A stretch of 64,000 nucleotides of DNA from Parapedobacter defluvii (GTDB lineage: Bacteria; Bacteroidota; Bacteroidia; Sphingobacteriales; Sphingobacteriaceae), in assembly GCF_014642075.1 (NCBI RefSeq), contig NZ_BMIK01000014.1, positions 62,001-126,000 on the forward strand, given 5' to 3'. This document shows positions 27,552-38,804 of the stretch, piece by piece. The notes under the pieces are model-generated. The model worked only from the letters and a program-made list of their open reading frames with translations, searched no databases and was not told the DNA's origin. Position 1 is the first letter of the stretch. Each line of letters starts with the position of its first letter. A program made the translations under genes and the position numbers.

Positions 27552-28013
27552 TCAACGCTTTTCATCATTGATTTCCAGCCAATAACCGTCAGGATCCTGG
27601 ATATAGAGCTGTTTGACACCATCCACGCGTGTCCCGACTTTACCCGGCTCATTCTGCACGTTGTAGTAGGTAATGCCGAATTTTTCAAGCTGATCCACAA
27701 ACGCATCGATAGACGCCACACTGAAGCAAATGTGGGTATTCCGGCTATGTTCTTTGCGCTCGGTTGCATCTGCAACAAGATGCAGGGAAAACCCTGGAGC
27801 GATCTCCAACCACACATGCTTTCCTATTTTAAAAGGTTCGGGAAGGGTATCCAATTGCAATACTTCCCGGTAAAATGAAGCACTCTTCTTGAGGTCCAAC
27901 ACGGACAATGCCATGTGATTAAAGCTCCCTTTGTTTGCCTGCGAGTAACTTTTCAAGGAAATTCCGAGAAAACACATCCCCAACAAGGTGTATAAAATCA
28001 ACGATTTTTTCAT
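27552..28013 (-). CDS. Exported VOC/glyoxalase-fold protein
   Basis: 153 residues. A signal peptide (MKKSLILYTLLGMCFLGISLKSYSQ) precedes a VOC domain: 'FNHMALSVLDLKKSASFYREVLQLD', 'KHVWLEIAPGFSLHLVAD', 'HICFSVASIDAFVDQLEKFGI', 'KQLYIQDPDGYWLEIND'. The metal-type positions (His in NHMA, His in SLHLV, His in THICF, Glu in WLEIND) are present. Export of a VOC protein is uncommon. It starts 8 bp from an 80-bp repeat that fills the gap to the upstream gene. Confidence 0.85.
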   Translation of the reverse strand: MKKSLILYTLLGMCFLGISLKSYSQANKGSFNHMALSVLDLKKSASFYREVLQLDTLPEPFKIGKHVWLEIAPGFSLHLVADATERKEHSRNTHICFSVASIDAFVDQLEKFGITYYNVQNEPGKVGTRVDGVKQLYIQDPDGYWLEINDEKR

Positions 28014-28021
28014 CTATGTAT

Positions 28022-28101
28022 AATTTGCTTTTTATCGGCGATGAAGCTGTCATGATTTAATTATTTCACTGTGTGATTTTTGAAAATCATGACGGTTTCA
28101 T
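28022..28101 (+). repeat. 80-bp intergenic repeat, copy 1
   Basis: 79 of 80 positions are identical to 36887-36966. The arms at 28041-28058 and 28084-28101 form an 18-bp stem in which two pairs are G-U when read as plus-strand RNA, with a 25-nt loop. It fills the 92-bp gap between two minus-strand genes, so its RNA-like strand is antisense to them here. It is a candidate REP/MITE-like or structured-RNA element. Confidence 0.85.
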
Positions 28102-28105
28102 AACA

Positions 28106-29326
28106 TTATGGATATAACAGATATTGTTTACGCATTTCTTTGTAGTCGCTCAACCCCGGCTCCCAGGATTTTCGTATTTCTGCTTCACTCAGGCCATCCA
28201 TCACTTGCTTTTTAAATACATCGTTTCCGATCAGTGCTTCAATCCGGCCCATGGCCGGGCTTTGCGAAGCGTCGAAAAATCGTTCTTTCTCGGGGAAGGC
28301 CTTATAAAGCTCAAGCATCCATTGCAGGTTAATGCGCCCCGAGGCATGCAATTCCTTTATATCATAATCCCTCAGATCTATTCCATAGCAGATTTTATCC
28401 CGGTGTAACGGTGCCTCAGACATGCCGGGTATGCTTACCGGCTTAAAGGAAAATTCATATTGCCCTTTCAACTCAGGTGCGCCCAAGACCGTAAAGGGCA
28501 TATACGTGCCCCTCCCTTGGCTGATAATCGTACCTTCAAACAAACACAAGGATGGATAAAGAATAATGGATGCCTGCGAGTTAAGATTTGGGGATGGGTT
28601 TACAGGCAATTCATAATATAGGTCGTGGGTATAGTTCTCCATTCGGACGACTTTGATGTCGCATTTGACACCGTTGGCAAGCCATCCCTCCCCGTTCAGC
28701 ATGTGGGCAAACTCTCCCATGGTCATCCCGTGTGCTATCGGTATCGGAAATTTCCCGATACCCGATTTAAACCGCATATCCAACACCGGTCCATCCACAA
28801 ATCCATTGGGATTGGGGCGGTCTAAAATGATGAGTTGCTTGCCGTATTCCGCGCAAGCCTCCATGATATCCGCCAAGGTATTAATGTAGGTGTAAAACCT
28901 GCAACCCACATCCTGAATATCAAAAATAAGGACATCCAGTGCGTCCATCTGTGCCTTGGATGGCTTTCTGTTTTTGCCGTACAACGAGACGATGGGTATC
29001 CCGGTCTGCGGATCGACTTCATCCCTGACGATGGCCCCATTGCTCGCATTTTGGCGGAATCCATGTTCGGGCCCGAAAATCATCTTGATATCAACCCCCA
29101 GTGCAAGCAGACTATCCACGCTCAACGTATTCCCGATGATGGACGTTTGGTTAATTACCATTCCCACCCGTTTGCCTTCCAAACCGGGCACGTAGCTTTC
29201 TACCTGATCGGCACCGGTAACGATGCCTTCCTGTTCTTCACGTTGCCCCGGGTTTCCGCCCGAGCGCTCGGCCGCCCCGCTGCATGAAGTCAATAATATC
29301 AACGCTAGTATCAATTTACATATCAT
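28106..29326 (-). CDS. NamZ-like (DUF1343) exo-beta-N-acetylmuramidase lipoprotein
   Basis: 406 residues from ATG 29326, which gives a lipoprotein signal (MICKLILALILLTSCSG); the ATG at 29380 adds an unlikely n-region. DUF1343 features are 'GKRVGMVINQTSI', 'FGPEHGFRQNASNG', 'SLYGKNRKPS', 'LIFDIQDVGCRFYTYI', 'ILDRPNPNG' and 'PSLCLFEGTIISQGRGTYMPF'. NamZ releases terminal MurNAc from peptidoglycan fragments, so a role in cell-wall recycling in the periplasm is likely. It is followed directly by the 80-bp repeat. Confidence 0.92.
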   Translation of the reverse strand: MICKLILALILLTSCSGAAERSGGNPGQREEQEGIVTGADQVESYVPGLEGKRVGMVINQTSIIGNTLSVDSLLALGVDIKMIFGPEHGFRQNASNGAIVRDEVDPQTGIPIVSLYGKNRKPSKAQMDALDVLIFDIQDVGCRFYTYINTLADIMEACAEYGKQLIILDRPNPNGFVDGPVLDMRFKSGIGKFPIPIAHGMTMGEFAHMLNGEGWLANGVKCDIKVVRMENYTHDLYYELPVNPSPNLNSQASIILYPSLCLFEGTIISQGRGTYMPFTVLGAPELKGQYEFSFKPVSIPGMSEAPLHRDKICYGIDLRDYDIKELHASGRINLQWMLELYKAFPEKERFFDASQSPAMGRIEALIGNDVFKKQVMDGLSEAEIRKSWEPGLSDYKEMRKQYLLYP

Positions 29327-29508
29327 GTCAGGTACTTTGAAAAGTATGGAAGCAAGTCTCTGCTTTAACAATAGCCGCAATCTAAGTAAAAGTTATTTCT
29401 AATGCAAAAGAACAGAGAAAGAAGCTGGGTACCGCCACCAACGTCTTCTTGTAGATACTTTGTAGACATGGAACGGATTGTCCGTAGATAATGTGTATGT
29501 AGTGAAAT

Positions 29509-29643: not shown

Positions 29644-32600
29644 ATGCAGCATCTTGTATCCGTCCTTTTTTTCTTGTGGCTTGTTACCGGCACGATAGCA
29701 CAAGCGCAAACGATTTGGCATGTATCGCCGGATGGCAGTGGCGATGGCACGTCATGGGCTGCGGCCAGCAGTTTGACCGATGCGGTGGATAATGCTGTTG
29801 CAGGCGACGAACTCTGGTTGAAACAGGGAACTTATCCGATATCATCGACAATCTCGATCGATAAAACACTGGAAATCCTCGGGGGATTTTCAGGATTGGG
29901 AAACCAAAGAGATCCCGCCCTTTATCCCAGTATCATCGATGGTCAGCATGCTGTAAGCATCATAAGAACCGGATTGAACTCAAACGATATGCTTTTTGAA
30001 GGCATCTCTTTCATTAATGGCTATGCAGACATCGGCACCGACGTTAATGACATAAAGGGGGGAGCATTATACATATCGGGAAATGGTACACGCATTAACA
30101 ACTGTATTTTCAGGGATAATACATCGGAAAACAGAATAGGTTCTGGCGCCATCTACCTATGGAATACAGATAATATCGTAATTGAAAATTCCCATTTTGA
30201 AAACAATCGCGTCATTCAAAATGACGGGTGGGCAGCAGGAAATATCGGCGGCGGTGCCATCCATATACGGTTTGGCACCAACAATCGAATTGAAAACTGC
30301 AGGTTTGTAAATAACTTCTCGTACTATAGTGGCGGAGCTATCGACGCTTGGGGGGAGGATGCCCAAATTATAAATTGTCATTTTGAAGACAATCGAAGCG
30401 GTGATAACGGGGGTGCAATTCTCGTCCGTTTTGAGCGTGCAATTATTTCCAATTCCGTTTTTAGGAACAATAGCTCAGAAAAAAGCGGTGGGGCTATTTA
30501 CCTTAATGCGGATCCCTCGACCATAACAAACTCCATTTTTAGCGAAAATTCTTCTTTGGATAACGGCGGCGCTATTTTCAATAGCAGTGAACTTTCCATA
30601 TTCAATTCATCATTCACTCAAAATACTTCCTCAGACAAAGGTGGTGCGCTATATAATGGCCAAAAACTCTCCGTATCCAATTCGCTGTTTAATCAAAACA
30701 AAACAACAACCCTAGGCGGTGCCATTTACAGCAGGGAGGAACTATATGTTACCAATTCAACCTTCGTTTTCAATGAAAAAACAGCGATTGCCCATCCGTA
30801 TCGGGAAAGTTCAGAATATTACACTTATCAGACCCATATTTTTAATTCCATTTTCTTCGGTAATACAGCCGGAAACCTAGCGGATGTCGATTTATGGCCC
30901 GATGTGGATAGAGACGGTGAATACCCCGACCAAAGTGAAAAAGATTTCAGAAGAAATATATTTCAGGAAAACACGTACGGTTCCAATAATTTAATGGGAA
31001 TAGACCCCTTGTTTCAGGATTTTTCCGGCGACGATTTTAGCTTGCGGAGCAATAGTCCGGCTATTGAATATGGAAGAAACCCGCTTTATACCGCGGTTGC
31101 AGGAACCGGACCGGAAACGGATAATGATTTAGGTGGAAACGACAGACTGTTTGGTGATCATGTTGATGCCGGGGCTTACGAACATCAATCGGCTTCGACG
31201 TTGACACCTCCGGGTTGTGTAACGAATGTAACACCCACCGATAATGCCACGGACGTCCCTATAGATGCCAACATCACCTGGGATGCCGTGGTCGATGCCA
31301 CAGGCTACCGCATCTCCATCGGGACGACGTCGGGCGGAACGGACATCGCCGAAAACGTCGAGGTAACAACGGGTACAAGCTTTAATCCACCAGCCGATTT
31401 TCCCGAAAACGAGACCGTTTATGTTACCGTGGTTCCATACAACGCTGTGGGCAAAGCCACGGGATGCCCTGAAATCCGTTTTACCACGGAAATTTTACCC
31501 ACCGTCCCCGGCTGTGCGACTAACATAGCGCCTTCGGACAACGCCATCGATGTTCCGGTGGATGCTACGATCACTTGGGATGCCGTGGTCAATGCAGACG
31601 GATATTACCTAACTATCGGCACGACTTCGGGCGGAACAGACATCGCCGATAACGAAGAGGTAACAGGCACAAGCTTTAATCTCGCGATGACCTTTGATGA
31701 AAACACGACTTATTACGTTTCCGTCATTCCTTTCAATGCTGTGGGGGAAGCAGAGGGCTGCACCGAAATCAATTTTACGACCGAAACTGTATTAAAGATT
31801 CCAGAATGTACGATCATCACAGCCCCTATTGACGACGCTACGGACGTTGCCATCGATGCCAGCATCAGTTGGACTTCTATTGACGACGCGGATGGTTACC
31901 GCATCTCCATCGGTACTACTGCGGGCGGTACAGACATTGCGGACAGCGAAGAAGTAACCGGGACATCGTATGCCCTGACCGGCGGTTTTGATGAGAACAC
32001 AACCTATTATGTATCTGTCATTTCTTTCAACAATGCAGGGGAAGCAGAGGGCTGTACCGAAATTAGCTTTGTGACCGAGACCGTACTAAAGGCTCCAGAA
32101 TGTACAACCATCACCGCGCCGGAAGATGAAGCGACTGATGTCGGGCTGGGTGCGGGGATTACATGGTCAACGGTGGACAGAGCCGATGGTTACCGTATCT
32201 TTATCGGTACCACAGCCGGTGGAACTGACATCCTGGACGGTGAAGAGGTAACCGGAACATCCTATACCCCCGCAACCGATTGGGAAGAAAACACTACCTA
32301 CCATGTGACCGTTGTACCATTCAACGCAGCCGGGGAAGCCGAAGGGTGCACGGAGATCAGCTTCACCACCACTACGCTTTTGGTTGCACCCGAATGTACA
32401 ACCATCACCGCGCCGGAAGATGAAGCGACTGATGTCGGGCTGGGTGCGGGGATTACGTGGTCAACGGTGGACAGAGCCGATGGTTACCGTATCTTTATCG
32501 GTACCACAGCCGGTGGAACTGACATCCTGGACGGTGAAGAGGTAACCGGAACTTCCTATACCCCCGCAACCGATTGGGAAGAAAACACTACCTACCATGT

Positions 32601-34461
32601 GACCGTTGTACCATTCAACGCAGCCGGGGAAGCCGAAGGGTGCACGGAGATCAGCTTCACCACCACTACGCTTTTGGTTGCACCCGAATGTACAACCATC
32701 ACCGCGCCGGAAGATGAAGCGACTGATGTCGGGCTGGGTGCGGGGATTACGTGGTCAACGGTGGACAGAGCCGATGGTTACCGTATCTTTATCGGTACCA
32801 CAGCCGGTGGAACTGACATCCTGGACGGTGAAGAGGTAACCGGAACTGCCTATACCACGGCAACCGATTGGGAAGGGAACACCACGTACTACGTAACCGT
32901 TGTTCCGTACAATGCTGCCGGAGAAGCCGAGGGATGTACGGAGATCAGCTTTACGACTGCTACCCTGCTCCGGGCACCCGAATGCACACCCATTACCTTT
33001 CCGGAAAATGAAGCGACCGATATCGGACTGGGTGCGGGGATTACGTGGCCGGTGGCCAACGGAGCCGATGGTTATCGTATTTACGTCGGCACCACCGCAG
33101 GCGGTACAGACATCATAGATGGCGAAGAAGTGACTGGAACCACCCATATCCCTACAACCGATTGGGAAGAAAACACTACCTACTATGTGACCGTTGTACC
33201 ATTCAACGCAGCCGGGGAAGCCGAAGGGTGCACGGAGATCAGCTTTACGACCGCTACCCTGCTTCGGGCACCCGATTGCACAGCCATTACCAGCCCCGAA
33301 GACAGCGACACCGATATCGGACTGGGTGCAGGGATCACCTGGTCAGAAGCTGATGGTGCCGATGGCTATCGTATCTATATCGGCACCACCGCAGGCGGGA
33401 TAGACATCGTGGACGGCGAAGAGATAACCGGAACCACCTATACCCCAACGACTGATTGGGAAGAAAACACTACCTACTATGTGACCGTTGTACCATTCAA
33501 CGCCGCCGGGGAAGCAGAAGGGTGTGCGGAAATCCGCTTCACCACCACTACCCTGCTCCGGGCACCCGAATGCACACCCATTACCTTTCCGGAAAATGAA
33601 GCGACCGATATCGGACTGGGTGCGGGGATTACGTGGCCGGTGGCCAACGGAGCCGATGGTTATCGTATTTACGTCGGCACCACCGCAGGCGGTACAGACA
33701 TCATAGATGGCGAAGAAGTGACTGGAACCACCCATATCCCTACAACCGATTGGGAAGAAAACACTACCTACTATGTGACCGTTGTACCATTCAACGCAGC
33801 CGGGGAAGCCGAAGGGTGCACGGAGATCAGCTTTACGACCGCTACCCTGCTTCGAGCTCCCGATTGTACCACCGTAACGAGTCCGATAGATGGAGCGGGC
33901 AGTACTTCGCTGGATGCGGACATTACATGGACACCGGTTGAAGGAGCCGAGGGATACCGCATCTCCATTGGTACCACACCCGGCGGAACGGAAATCGCAG
34001 ACAACGAAACGGTAATGGGAACCGTGTTCCATCCTGCATTTGATTTTGCAGAAAACACCCCCTATTACCTGTCGGTCGTGCCCTTCAACGCTGCCGGCGA
34101 AGCAACCGGATGCTCCCAGACCCGCTTTGTTATCATCCCTGATGAAAACCAAACCGGCAAAGATGTCAGCCGGACCAAATATGGCTTTTCTCCTAATGGC
34201 GATGGAATCAACGATTTTTGGGAAATCGATGGAATTGAGCAATATCCCGATAATACGGTATCCATTTACAATCGATGGGGCGATAGGATTTTTGAAATCA
34301 GACAGTACGATAATCAATCCCGCGTATTTAAGGGGGTTGCCAACCAATTGACACGGCTGGGTGCAGGCATATTACCTGCCGGTACGTATTTTTTCATCAT
34401 CCAATATCGCGACAATCAAGAAACGAAAAAAGTCGAAGGCTTTTTGGTACTTAAGCGCTAA
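29644..34461 (+). CDS. T9SS adhesin: beta-helix, ten FN3-like modules, gliding-type C-terminal domain
   Basis: 1605 residues. A signal peptide (MQHLVSVLFFLWLVTGTIAQAQ) precedes a right-handed beta-helix (about 25-515) with 'NSGGAIY..NNCIFRDN' rungs, as in choice-of-anchor Q proteins. Ten FN3-like modules of about 98 residues follow (about 523-1500; each 'P.CT.IT.P.DEATDV' to 'AAGEAEGCTEI.FTT'), then a gliding-motility-associated type B sorting domain (about 1515-1605: 'KYGFSPNGDGINDFWEID', 'SIYNRWGDRIFE'). It should be exported by T9SS and displayed on the surface. Its stop overlaps the ATG of the PorP/SprF gene by 1 nt. Modules 4-9 are nearly identical in DNA. Confidence 0.95.
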   Translation: MQHLVSVLFFLWLVTGTIAQAQTIWHVSPDGSGDGTSWAAASSLTDAVDNAVAGDELWLKQGTYPISSTISIDKTLEILGGFSGLGNQRDPALYPSIIDGQHAVSIIRTGLNSNDMLFEGISFINGYADIGTDVNDIKGGALYISGNGTRINNCIFRDNTSENRIGSGAIYLWNTDNIVIENSHFENNRVIQNDGWAAGNIGGGAIHIRFGTNNRIENCRFVNNFSYYSGGAIDAWGEDAQIINCHFEDNRSGDNGGAILVRFERAIISNSVFRNNSSEKSGGAIYLNADPSTITNSIFSENSSLDNGGAIFNSSELSIFNSSFTQNTSSDKGGALYNGQKLSVSNSLFNQNKTTTLGGAIYSREELYVTNSTFVFNEKTAIAHPYRESSEYYTYQTHIFNSIFFGNTAGNLADVDLWPDVDRDGEYPDQSEKDFRRNIFQENTYGSNNLMGIDPLFQDFSGDDFSLRSNSPAIEYGRNPLYTAVAGTGPETDNDLGGNDRLFGDHVDAGAYEHQSASTLTPPGCVTNVTPTDNATDVPIDANITWDAVVDATGYRISIGTTSGGTDIAENVEVTTGTSFNPPADFPENETVYVTVVPYNAVGKATGCPEIRFTTEILPTVPGCATNIAPSDNAIDVPVDATITWDAVVNADGYYLTIGTTSGGTDIADNEEVTGTSFNLAMTFDENTTYYVSVIPFNAVGEAEGCTEINFTTETVLKIPECTIITAPIDDATDVAIDASISWTSIDDADGYRISIGTTAGGTDIADSEEVTGTSYALTGGFDENTTYYVSVISFNNAGEAEGCTEISFVTETVLKAPECTTITAPEDEATDVGLGAGITWSTVDRADGYRIFIGTTAGGTDILDGEEVTGTSYTPATDWEENTTYHVTVVPFNAAGEAEGCTEISFTTTTLLVAPECTTITAPEDEATDVGLGAGITWSTVDRADGYRIFIGTTAGGTDILDGEEVTGTSYTPATDWEENTTYHVTVVPFNAAGEAEGCTEISFTTTTLLVAPECTTITAPEDEATDVGLGAGITWSTVDRADGYRIFIGTTAGGTDILDGEEVTGTAYTTATDWEGNTTYYVTVVPYNAAGEAEGCTEISFTTATLLRAPECTPITFPENEATDIGLGAGITWPVANGADGYRIYVGTTAGGTDIIDGEEVTGTTHIPTTDWEENTTYYVTVVPFNAAGEAEGCTEISFTTATLLRAPDCTAITSPEDSDTDIGLGAGITWSEADGADGYRIYIGTTAGGIDIVDGEEITGTTYTPTTDWEENTTYYVTVVPFNAAGEAEGCAEIRFTTTTLLRAPECTPITFPENEATDIGLGAGITWPVANGADGYRIYVGTTAGGTDIIDGEEVTGTTHIPTTDWEENTTYYVTVVPFNAAGEAEGCTEISFTTATLLRAPDCTTVTSPIDGAGSTSLDADITWTPVEGAEGYRISIGTTPGGTEIADNETVMGTVFHPAFDFAENTPYYLSVVPFNAAGEATGCSQTRFVIIPDENQTGKDVSRTKYGFSPNGDGINDFWEIDGIEQYPDNTVSIYNRWGDRIFEIRQYDNQSRVFKGVANQLTRLGAGILPAGTYFFIIQYRDNQETKKVEGFLVLKR
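32092..33855 (+). repeat. Six tandem 294-bp repeats inside the adhesin gene
   Basis: Units begin at 32092, 32386, 32680, 32974, 33268 and 33562, an exact 294-bp period (98 codons). Units 1-3 are almost identical to each other. Units 4 and 6 are almost identical although unit 5 differs, which points to duplication of a two-unit (588-bp) block. The period keeps the frame, so unit number can change without loss of the sorting domain. Confidence 0.95.
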
Positions 34462-35416: not shown

Positions 35417-36813
35417 ATGAATAGATCGTTCAAGCTAGTTTTTCTTGCGTTTCAGATACTGCTTATATTAACATCCATTCCAATGGAAAGCTGCAGATCA
35501 CCGCTGATACCGAAACGGAAACGTCTATCTGGTTTGGTGGGTTCAATCCGTTTGCCACATACACACTTGATCTGGCTTCCTGCGAAGGAGAAGGGGCCAT
35601 CGGATTTGAATTTTCGGATGCTGAAAAAACGGAACGCTTCGTAATCGCCATCGACTATCAGGAAAAATATATCACGGATGTACATCAAACAATAATGAGA
35701 GGCAATGAGGTAATCTCGCACGAATCGATTGCCACCGCTACACAGTCAAGTAAATTAGCTGCCGAAGGGAAACTGATCTTGCAAATGTTGGGCAGTGGGC
35801 TGACTTTATATAGCCAAAACAGCGGTCTTCCCCTGCCGATTGCTCAGTCGGATTTCAGTCAGCACATGGACCTACGCAAAAAACAGTATCTACACACGTT
35901 CCAGTCGAACCTGTTTGCACAGATTAAACAGGGATCTGTTCAGGTAAATAAGGCAACATCAGCACTTAGCAGTGGCATGGGCCTCGCAGACATCCGGACC
36001 ATCACTTATGAGGATGGCACGCCGATGCTGGACCAGGGCCGGATTTGGTACACCATGACGATCCGGGGACGTGCATTGCCGCATCACGTACAGGGTGTTT
36101 TCAGCATGGATCCCGCTGTATTTGATCTCCGATTTGAAGGAGTTATCCTGTTCGACCGGCAGGATGAAATACTTCGGAACGAAGTGGCTTCCCATATTTT
36201 CTATGATCGAAACGACAAGATGTGGCGTGGTATTACCACCGGATTCAGCGCGTATGCCGATCCTAACGAGCAAAAGCAGCTATTGGCCGTGCAAAGCGTA
36301 AAAGACCCGCGTTTTGGTTTCTCCGTTATGCAGGCCCTTCCTTTCGGAATCGTGGGTGATATCGAAGATCCACACATTTTATACGACGCTGAGGCAGATA
36401 AATGGCGGATATTGACCTGCGAAAACAACGATGGCTATAAAGCAATCCTATTGGGATCAAGTACGTGGAACAAAGGCTATCAACGCATCGCCGGCCCGGT
36501 AACCCACAATTCCACAGGAACATCGATTCAGCGTATCGGCGGAAAACGCTATTGCTTTTCCGGAAGCCAGGAACGGAAAATATTTATCTACTCATATCCC
36601 CAACTTCACGAAGTGGGCACATTGAAAATGGATCTTCCCCCATGGGATGAAAACTCCGGCACCCGGGTTTGGCCCAATGTAGTGGAATTGCCAGACGGCT
36701 ACCCTTTCCGCTATGTCGCGCTAATGATGGACCGATTCAATTATCCCGGATTGGAGGGACCGAACTGGACGTATGGAGCTTTGTATTTATACCATGGTTA
36801 CGACGAGCCTTAG
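35417..36813 (+). CDS. Exported five-bladed-propeller-like (GH43-like) protein, frameshifted near its start
   Basis: The signal peptide (MNRSFKLVFLAFQILLILTS) is read from ATG 35417, but the mature protein ('YINIHSNGKLQITADTETE', 'IWFGGFNPFATYTL' and on to residue ~370) is in the frame one base earlier. The first ATG of that frame is 35695. Frames swap around 35440-35470, near a TTTTT run, consistent with loss of one base. From 35695 the frame is intact (372 codons). The repeated 'DIEDPHILYDAEADKWRILTC' and 'GVILFDRQDEILRNEVASHIFYDRNDKMW' pattern resembles the GH43/GH32-like propeller fold. It may be a pseudogene, a sequencing error, or recoded. Confidence 0.6.
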
Positions 36814-36886
36814 CTAGTCGTTTCACAACGCATACCTGTGGCTGATAGGTGCAAAATTCTACATTGGGATTTTTTTCATCCTATTA

Positions 36887-36966
36887 AATTTGCTTTTTAT
36901 CGGCGATGAAGCTGTCATGATTTAATTATTTCGCTGTGTGATTTTTGAAAATCATGACGGTTTCAT
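36887..36966 (+). repeat. 80-bp intergenic repeat, copy 2
   Basis: Second copy of 28022-28101 with a single A/G difference. The arms at 36906-36923 and 36949-36966 form the same 18-bp stem with two G-U pairs. Here the RNA-like strand is the sense strand of the upstream untranslated region of the TPR-HTH gene, ending 29 bp before its ATG. Confidence 0.85.
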
Positions 36967-36995: not shown

Positions 36996-38804
36996 ATGAA
37001 GTTAATCCGTATCGTACCGTTGCTGTTTTTCCTTTTGCAGTGTTCATTGGCATGGGCACAATATATTTCACAAGCGACCCACGCAACGCTTGAAAAAATA
37101 GAGCAACTGCAAACACGGAATAAATCACAGGAAGCGTTATCTACGCTGCAAGAAGCCATCGGGGAGACTGATTCACCCGACGATCTCGCGTATTTATATG
37201 CCTATCAAAGTGGACTATATACCTCCATGGATAGCCTCTTAGCCGGAAAAAGAACGCTCGACCTCAGCCTGGAGCATGCACAGCATACTTCAAAGAAAAC
37301 CTCAAAAGCCGTTGCCTACCGGGCCAAAGCATATCTCAACAATCGGTTGAACCTTCCGGATGAAGCAGTGAAAGACGCACTGATCGGACTGCGGTATGTA
37401 GACGGAAACGACGAAGATCCCATCACAAAATACCACCTTAATTACCTGCTGTACAGCGTGTATAGTAAATGGAACGATGAGGAAAAGATGGAAAAATATA
37501 TCCGGACGTGTGGACAATACGCCCTCCGGGCCAACAGCGCCAACCTACAGGCGAATGTAAATAACGGTCTTTCCAGCATGTACCTGGCGCGCTATCGAAA
37601 AAAAAATAGAAAAGACCTGTTGGATAGCTCTTACCATTATTTAGGCGAAGCTTTTTCCCTTTATCAAAATTACCCTGAAAAAATAAGCGGGAACACCTTC
37701 GTCATTACCTGCATCAATCTCGCCAATTATTACCTGGATTTTTCTTCGGAAGATTTGGCTGTGCGCAAGAATAAAGCGTTTGATTACCTCGGCCTTGCTG
37801 AAGAAAAGCTCAATAACAAAGTCGCTTTTGCCTACATGTGGATCAACGTGTTCGGTATCAAAAGCGGCTTCGCCAAATTGGAGGGGAATCTTTCACTGGC
37901 GGAGCAGTACCTGTTGCAGGGGCTGGGCCAACTGATGCGTGGCGATGGAAATTATTTCAAACTCGAATATTTAGTTAATAAAGACCTGGCTGAGATTGCC
38001 CAAAAGAAAAATGATCTAAAATCAGCGATCACCTATCAGCAGCAAGCAGAAGAACTATTGAAGAAGTCGTTTGATGAACAACAACTGCTGAATGCCCAAA
38101 AACTGGAAATACAGTACGAAACCGAAAAGAAAGACCAGCAACTGAAATTGCTGAATGAACGCGCCGAATTCCGTAAACGTAAAAATTACCTGTATGGTGG
38201 AATTGCTGTAGCATTGCTTTTCGGACTCGTTTTCATGTTCTCATCGTATCGTTTTAAACTGCGGTATTCCATGGAGCGTGAAAAAAAACTCCAGCAGGAA
38301 AAGGAAGACGCTGAACGCACGATGGCCATTCAAATACGGCTGGAGAAAGAAGAACAAGCGCGGTTAAAAGCAGAACAGGAACTACTGGACCTGAAACGCC
38401 AGCAACTTGAAAAAGAGGCGCTGACCAACTCGTTGATTATCGAGCATAAAAACGAAACGCTAAAACAAATCCAAAACAGAATACAGGAAGGCGATGCCGG
38501 GCATATACAGAAGCTATTGAAAGAAGAAATGCTGCTGCGCGCCGATTTTGAAGATATTAAGATGCAGATACAGGACCTGCATCCTAATTTCTTCAGCCGC
38601 CTGTCTGAAAAATCCGTGCAGAAACTGACACCGCTCGACTTGCGGTACTGTGCTTACCTGCACCTGAAGATGACAACGAAGCAAATTGCACAGGTGCTTC
38701 ATGTGGCTCCTCAGAGTGTACGGATGTTTAAATATCGATTAAAGCAGAAATTCGGGTTGGATAAAGATTCGGATTTCGAAGAATTCCTACAGGAAATCTT
38801 TTGA
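36996..38804 (+). CDS. TPR-TM-coiled-coil regulator with C-terminal LuxR-like HTH
   Basis: 602 residues. A signal peptide (MKLIRIVPLLFFLLQCSLAWAQ) precedes periplasmic TPR helices (about 25-380: 'HEALSTLQEAIGE'-like pairs), one TM helix at about 395-412 ('YLYGGIAVALLFGLVFMFSSY'), a long cytoplasmic coiled coil (about 420-500, E/K/Q-rich) and an HTH at about 545-600 ('LTPLDLRYCAYLHLKMTTKQIAQVLHVAPQSVRMFKYRLKQK'). This one-component membrane regulator type is common in Bacteroidota. Signal and targets are unknown. It follows the T9SS adhesin cluster and the 80-bp repeat. Confidence 0.88.
   Translation: MKLIRIVPLLFFLLQCSLAWAQYISQATHATLEKIEQLQTRNKSQEALSTLQEAIGETDSPDDLAYLYAYQSGLYTSMDSLLAGKRTLDLSLEHAQHTSKKTSKAVAYRAKAYLNNRLNLPDEAVKDALIGLRYVDGNDEDPITKYHLNYLLYSVYSKWNDEEKMEKYIRTCGQYALRANSANLQANVNNGLSSMYLARYRKKNRKDLLDSSYHYLGEAFSLYQNYPEKISGNTFVITCINLANYYLDFSSEDLAVRKNKAFDYLGLAEEKLNNKVAFAYMWINVFGIKSGFAKLEGNLSLAEQYLLQGLGQLMRGDGNYFKLEYLVNKDLAEIAQKKNDLKSAITYQQQAEELLKKSFDEQQLLNAQKLEIQYETEKKDQQLKLLNERAEFRKRKNYLYGGIAVALLFGLVFMFSSYRFKLRYSMEREKKLQQEKEDAERTMAIQIRLEKEEQARLKAEQELLDLKRQQLEKEALTNSLIIEHKNETLKQIQNRIQEGDAGHIQKLLKEEMLLRADFEDIKMQIQDLHPNFFSRLSEKSVQKLTPLDLRYCAYLHLKMTTKQIAQVLHVAPQSVRMFKYRLKQKFGLDKDSDFEEFLQEIF

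Follow-up and report, generated by a model that had tools for sequence, protein, structure and literature searches.

The analysed window is a 64,000-nucleotide stretch of the Parapedobacter defluvii genome. It contains two copies of a short intergenic repeat, which an earlier note had described as an 80-bp pair. Both lie where that note placed them and are identical at 79 of 80 positions, differing solely at 28068 (A in copy 1, G in copy 2). The 80-mer was truncated at its left side: the complete unit occupies 28014–28101 in copy 1 (plus strand, 88 bp), as delimited by the family-model match and by its absence from a same-genus genome (G042), and 36880–36966 in copy 2 (plus strand, 87 bp), as delimited by the family model and by a 96%-identical copy in G042. 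Copy 1 lies between two minus-strand genes. One is a glyoxalase/VOC-family gene (27552–28013; Pfam PF00903, E = 4.2e-12), whose start codon is the insertion point, and the other is a NamZ-type exo-beta-N-acetylmuramidase gene (28106–29380; PF07075/PF20732), the exact start of which is uncertain. The repeat had been said to fill the whole gap between them; it takes up 88 of the 92 bases (28014–28105). Its antisense position is limited to copy 1, because copy 2 is located between two plus-strand frames (35695–36813 and 36996–38804). Both copies are preceded on the plus strand by the target motif TTTTTCAT, at 28006–28013 and 36872–36879, respectively. The CAT of the copy 1 target is the reverse complement of the glyoxalase start codon, and the reverse complement of the copy 2 target opens merely a 6-codon frame. 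Within the window, the family model matched these two copies alone, plus weak opposite-strand echoes of them. The other exact direct repeats of at least 30 bases all fell within the coding frame 29644–34461, a 1605-codon frame with long internal direct repeats at 32098–33854.

The plus-strand order of the element is TTTCAT target, linker, foot ATGAA, stem, loop, complementary arm and TTTCAT end. In copy 1, the linker runs from TTCAT to the foot (28014–28040) and includes the conserved AATTTGCTTTTTAnCGGC. The foot (28041–28045) is complementary to the left target TTCAT as well as to the TTCAT of its own right end, with which it pairs. Folding and covariation defined a hairpin at 28041–28101 with 18 pairs, including conserved G-T and T-G pairs, and a 25-nt loop; the number of pairs and the loop length are those of the earlier note. 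The right end TTTCAT (28096–28101) is a direct repeat of the target, according to the sequence and the empty-site comparisons. Across copies, the linker has the conserved sequence AATTTGTTTTTTAAnGGC and the stem reads GCTTGCAT or variants of it. The linker measured 23–28 nt in 114 of 118 measured copies (152 rows) and 24–28 nt in the 24 measurable P. defluvii copies, one of 21 nt aside.

Thirty P. defluvii copies were read individually. Their size ranged from 53 to 136 bp, and the element carries no gene. None of the 30 had terminal inverted repeats at 8 of 10 bases, a terminator-like T run 3' of the hairpin, or attC-type boxes (RYYYAAC..GTTRRRY). The tetranucleotide GTAG/GTGG was found within 7 nt of the foot in just two of them, the foot itself being ATGAA. 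The hairpins of intact copies extended from 29 to 112 nt. Seven long copies (L065, L068, L071, L074, L075, L077 and L079) contain an additional loop domain of about 45–50 nt, which forms a small hairpin by itself (GTTCAAGAGATCGCTTCGCTTAGTTCAT and variants), and the two copies of the window look like internal deletions of this form. Copy L063 (C6:86991–87083) bears a 36-nt exact direct repeat, TTTCATTTGAATAAATTGTTTTTTAATGGTAATGAA, on both sides of the hairpin, an arrangement that a second unit might leave behind after loss of its hairpin.

Searching the P. defluvii genome with the 80-mer yielded partial matches elsewhere, in which both ends were conserved and the middle was of variable length. 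A left-half pattern gave 34 matches (24 + 10) against one for the reversed control; the repeat is therefore not due to chance. A covariance model built from 20 aligned P. defluvii copies detected 32 copies in that genome at E ≤ 0.01 (20 of them in the model) and 29 at E ≤ 0.001 under stricter filters. Copy 1 scored 86.1 bits over 28006–28101 (cmsearch). Within the bacterial family, 20 of 41 genomes had matches to the model, as did 14 of 25 genera, and 13 further genome records held 3 to 38 copies each (G387 and G401 being the same genome). When 84,980 species genomes were scanned for exact matches, 82 stretches were reported. By title, all 80 of the stretches listed came from Pedobacter, Parapedobacter, Olivibacter, Sphingobacterium, Daejeonella, Hufsiella, Paradesertivirga and unnamed Sphingobacteriales/Sphingobacteriaceae, genera that we take to belong to Sphingobacteriaceae. 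As for a phage or plasmid origin, viral contigs gave no exact pattern match and copy 1 had no plasmid match. The P. defluvii copies are dispersed intergenic hairpins numbering in the tens, as in REP-type repeats, and tandem units start directly after a right-end TTTCAT. A search of non-subscription literature, judged by titles, returned no published description of the element; in the part of PMC7500135 consulted, CRISPR is the sole repeat type mentioned.

The hairpin is a property of one strand. The plus-strand RNA fold of copy 1 was a single long hairpin (−27.5 kcal/mol, z = −6.0, equalled by 0 of 200 shuffles), and copy 2 behaved similarly (z = −5.3, 0 of 200). The minus-strand folds were weaker (z = −4.0 and −2.5, respectively). 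Folding was carried out with DNA as well as RNA parameters. Among the 20 aligned copies, the foot was unchanged in all, the eight foot-proximal pairs were nearly invariant, and the higher pairs varied in step. A T-G (U-G) wobble was conserved in 20 of 20 and a G-T (G-U) wobble in 19 of 20. Because these wobble pairs become A-C mismatches on the opposite strand, one strand is the structured form. The step from there to the plus-strand RNA as the functional form is not established, as a plus strand that works as single-stranded DNA, as in IS200/REP-type elements, predicts the same wobble asymmetry; action as RNA and action as single-stranded DNA are both possible. Covariation in the P. defluvii copies amounted to 34 cells with both-sided changes against a shuffled mean of 12.6, a value reached by 0 of 500 shuffles; the counts of pairs and pair types did not exceed the shuffles (5 vs. 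4.4 and 8 vs. 10.2). For 93 distinct rows from named loci, which were fetched by a pattern fixing the lower stem and aligned to fit the structure, we obtained 78 cells against 20.1 and six pairs against 2.3. This covariation supports conservation of the hairpin. The earlier note had named the lack of further copies, of covariation and of a transcript as the refuting outcome; for the first two, the opposite was found, a dispersed family with a covarying hairpin.

The region of copy 1 is collinear with G042 at 81–82% identity, and the element is missing there. G042 has TTCTTCATTTGTATAATAAATATTG in place of TTTTTTCAT, the element and AACATTATGGATATAACAGATATTG in P. defluvii. This empty site retains TTCAT, and the family model found no match in the stretch (L211). 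In G042, the end of the NamZ gene overlaps the start of the glyoxalase gene as ATGA; in the window the element separates the two genes, and the last NamZ codon differs from that of G042. For a broader sample, 13 further P. defluvii flanks were queried and ten were followed; L068 was dropped as it had no match in a relative, and L070 and L076 as they had partial or paralogous matches only. From a larger set of matches, 27 orthologous start regions were fetched from eight same-genus genomes. Of these 27 sequences at ten loci, 23 were without the element. A relative in decayed or variant form was present in three, recognised by eye in L270 and by the model as well (E = 0.002) in L271 and L272, and the remaining one was doubtful (L259, a weak model match at E = 0.063). 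One of the 23, L269, is also without the target and therefore carries little information on the junction. The cleanest junction was obtained for L065 against G045, with a 91% identical flank: P. defluvii reads TTTTTCAT, element, TTTTGGTC, and G045 reads TTTTTCAT followed by TTTTAGTC, which puts the element immediately 3' of TTTTTCAT. One orthologous start codon is occupied by different subfamilies of the element in P. defluvii and Paradesertivirga; in eight genus relatives this start codon was clearly empty in seven cases and doubtful in one.

The 96%-identical relative of copy 2 (G042 C23:401510–401604) sits at a non-homologous locus with the same linker, and the linker therefore moves with the element. 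Together with the same-genus empty sites and the tandem arrays, this copy bears out the recent movement that the earlier note had considered. The repeat is therefore very probably a recently mobile, non-autonomous element, and not a demonstrated RNA gene.

Our preferred reading, to which we assign a probability of roughly 0.55, is that of a small non-autonomous element with a strand-specific hairpin that inserts exactly 3' of TTTCAT and moves as folded single-stranded DNA with its foot as the guide. Lying immediately 5' of the hairpin, the foot ATGAA would pair both with the TTCAT of the left flank and with the TTCAT of the right end. An enzyme would cut both TTCAT sites and join the ends, and the excised element would be re-inserted 3' of another TTTCAT. 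Copies with altered feet bear on the guide role. In two of them the left flank is altered to match (L085, TTCCAT/ATGGA/TTCCAT; L118, TTCAA/TTGAA), although the right end of L118, TTCAG, no longer matches its foot. Resting on these two copies, guide–target covariation is suggestive only. Copies L081, L105 and L109 have altered feet and retain TTCAT on the left, which reads as decay. When part of the foot was freed in the search pattern (NNTGNN), 38 of 399 family genomes were matched, against 0 for the reversed control; among the matches listed, one foot differs from ATGAA, and it belongs to a decayed copy in G025. L085 (C8:28471–28541), with flank, foot and right end all altered together, lies in front of a gene starting MEIIKKPV, presumably a ribosomal protein L23-like gene.

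Movement could also be due to a conventional recombinase acting on double-stranded DNA, for example a tyrosine recombinase with TTTCAT as the crossover or a transposase duplicating the 6 bp TTTCAT, for which the hairpin would serve only as a binding site. In the empty-site comparisons, the insertion lies 3' of a fixed target, with no duplication other than the 6-bp TTTCAT direct repeat, and this repeat is indistinguishable from a right end that the element carries. A 6-bp target duplication explains the TTTCAT at the two ends equally well, and a 6-bp crossover would leave it too. A mobile-element integrase gene of P. defluvii is preceded by AATTGCTTTTTAACGGCGATG, which is nearly identical to the linker. 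We nevertheless consider a conventional recombinase unlikely: terminal inverted repeats are lacking in the 30 copies read, the target is nearly invariant, unlike most duplications, and the asymmetry of the conserved wobble pairs indicates a single folded strand. At 1480–1550 of locus L035 (C3, about 132208–132278), and also in C25 near 448, TTGCATCGGTAAAAAATTGCTTTTTAACGGCGATGCA stands upstream of a tyrosine recombinase gene (Pfam) and shares the linker almost letter for letter, with TGCATCG/CGATGCA replacing TTCATC/GATGAA; further on lies a gene that we take to be relaxase-like.

The target TTTCAT reads as the start codon ATGAAA on the opposite strand. Among the 130 motif-bearing rows of a total of 152, an open frame that had 60 codons or more, or that extended beyond the locus, began at the left motif in 107; these rows were not deduplicated (e.g., L151/L092, L144/L091, L181/L112 and L175/L095 are duplicates) and include three reverse-strand echoes. 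This association speaks for a regulatory leader. The element would then be retained because its hairpin and the A-rich stretch directly upstream of ATGAAA, read in the direction of the gene, control translation or mRNA stability; pairing of the 3' arm TTCAT with the ATGAA of the start could in addition provide a switch. The conservation of some sites between species or genera also speaks for a leader function: L061/L136, L087/L106, and, before one and the same gene, six Pedobacter loci from five genomes. L061/L136 is a case in which element and flanks are kept between P. defluvii and Sphingobacterium paludis, before a gene starting MKNSENKRVSFLVED; this conservation is possibly an exaptation.

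To weigh the start-codon link, elements at non-coding sites were compared with other non-coding TTTTCAT sites of the named loci under the same gene-calling rule. With a 60-aa cut-off, 54 of 63 elements were at starts as compared with 64 of 95 other sites (p = 0.009; 5 and 218 coding sites left out, respectively). With a 90-aa cut-off, the figures were 50 of 67 and 62 of 101 (p = 0.09; 1 and 212 coding sites left out, respectively). Because non-element TTTTCAT sites in non-coding DNA are often starts too, the start-codon habit mostly reflects the target sequence and selection against in-gene insertion, and any extra preference is at most modest. The link thus mostly follows from the target. In addition, the genes downstream of the copies look unrelated by eye, the orthologous genes of close relatives are mostly without the element, and the stem has A-C mismatches in gene orientation. 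A regulatory leader is accordingly improbable. A plus-strand small RNA gene spread by duplication, which the stable, covarying plus-strand hairpin might suggest, is very improbable, given that no Rfam family reached its gathering score across the window, that only two microRNA models appeared around copy 1 at E ≤ 1, far under their cut-offs, that the 30 copies are devoid of a terminator-like T run after the hairpin, and that hairpin length varies so widely among intact copies.

A Y1 transposase was looked for as the mobiliser. Pfam PF01797 gave no hit in the P. defluvii genome at E ≤ 0.001, and a single 55-aa fragment (E = 0.56) at E ≤ 10. None was detected at E ≤ 0.001 in the three genomes scanned out of nine of the genus. 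A RAYT profile (A2, from an alignment of four RAYT proteins) had matches in 0 of 9 genus genomes in a search run without a positive control. Among the 41 genomes, Y1 occurred in 8 of the 20 that carry the element and in 9 of the 21 that do not, which indicates no link. A RAYT/Y1 protein as the mobiliser is therefore not supported by the Pfam, RAYT-profile or co-presence comparisons. RAYT flanks as the source of the hairpin were also rejected, since different hairpins were read by eye at four RAYT loci; the family model yielded one match at 20 Y1 loci, at E = 0.66. No transposase was seen between neighbouring copies at seven loci, where ORF translations were judged by eye. Regarding replication, no strand bias was seen: the structured strand followed the leading-strand direction in 11 of 19 copies listed (6/8, 2/4 and 3/7 by genome), a comparison of low power in which strands were counted by eye, tandem pairs were counted once, and the copies listed made up half or fewer per genome. 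The candidate mobilising enzyme may be an HUH-type nuclease that has diverged strongly, a recombinase of unrelated type, or an enzyme supplied by the host or its neighbours.

The element usually lands at a start codon ATGAAA because, outside coding sequence, the target occurs most commonly in that position; a further reason would be that the element brings an A-rich leader and leaves the start codon intact. A more specific form of the preferred reading is a transposase-less, single-stranded DNA element that homes on start codons. Its 5-base guide ATGAA would recognise the complement of ATGAA-type starts, and the element would insert directly before the gene, provide a ready-made leader that keeps the gene translatable, and depend on an enzyme outside the known Y1/HUH families; we regard this form as tentative and rather doubtful. 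If true, a start-codon-homing element would represent a new mobility system found across Sphingobacteriaceae. REP-type hairpin repeats are usually attributed to a resident RAYT transposase. Recent, site-exact hairpin movement in a genome in which no Y1 enzyme was found would point either to a new enzyme awaiting discovery or to in-trans transfer that is commoner than thought. Since the target is very often a start codon, each insertion there gives the gene a different leader and can separate genes that overlapped, as at copy 1. The element can thus be viewed as a natural experiment on bacterial tolerance of insertions at a very sensitive intergenic point.

Several known systems share part of this architecture. 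MITEs of DDE transposons are short, gene-less, multicopy and intergenic, and so is the element, which differs from them in having no terminal inverted repeats at its true ends. In integron attC sites, which carry the R''/R' box motif RYYYAAC..GTTRRRY, the folded single strand is the active form, as proposed here for the element; unlike attC sites, the 30 copies read have no R-box pair, and the copies are dispersed and not arranged in cassette arrays. The element resembles REP/REPIN sequences with their RAYT (TnpA-REP) proteins in its dispersed intergenic hairpins, its arrangement in tandem or inverted groups and a 3' end closed by the reverse complement of the foot, as far as these are set out in parts of PMC6006769. 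The same parts describe subclass 2.4 'double-foot' REPs, and 'atypical secondary structures' beside subclass 2.6 Y1 genes of Bacteroidetes. The foot of the element is ATGAA and not GT[AG]G, no RAYT was found in the genome, and the four RAYT genes examined in the family are flanked by other hairpins; with the published atypical structures, the comparison is one of description only. From IS200/IS605 elements it differs in using one hairpin for both ends, in a left target that equals the right-end sequence, in the lack of a Y1 gene found in its genome, and in the lack of a strand bias found at low power. With IS200/IS605 (IS608 and ISDra2) it shares insertion exactly 3' of a short fixed target, a one-strand hairpin and a complementary foot 5' of that hairpin. 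In IS200/IS605, the cleavage sites are complemented by a short sequence located 5' of the hairpin foot, and its guide role has been shown by experiment in IS608 and in one group 3 REP from Marinomonas (PMC5934647, PMC8266576). IS608 itself inserts exactly 3' of TTAC through guide pairing, as described in a passage of PMC5934647.
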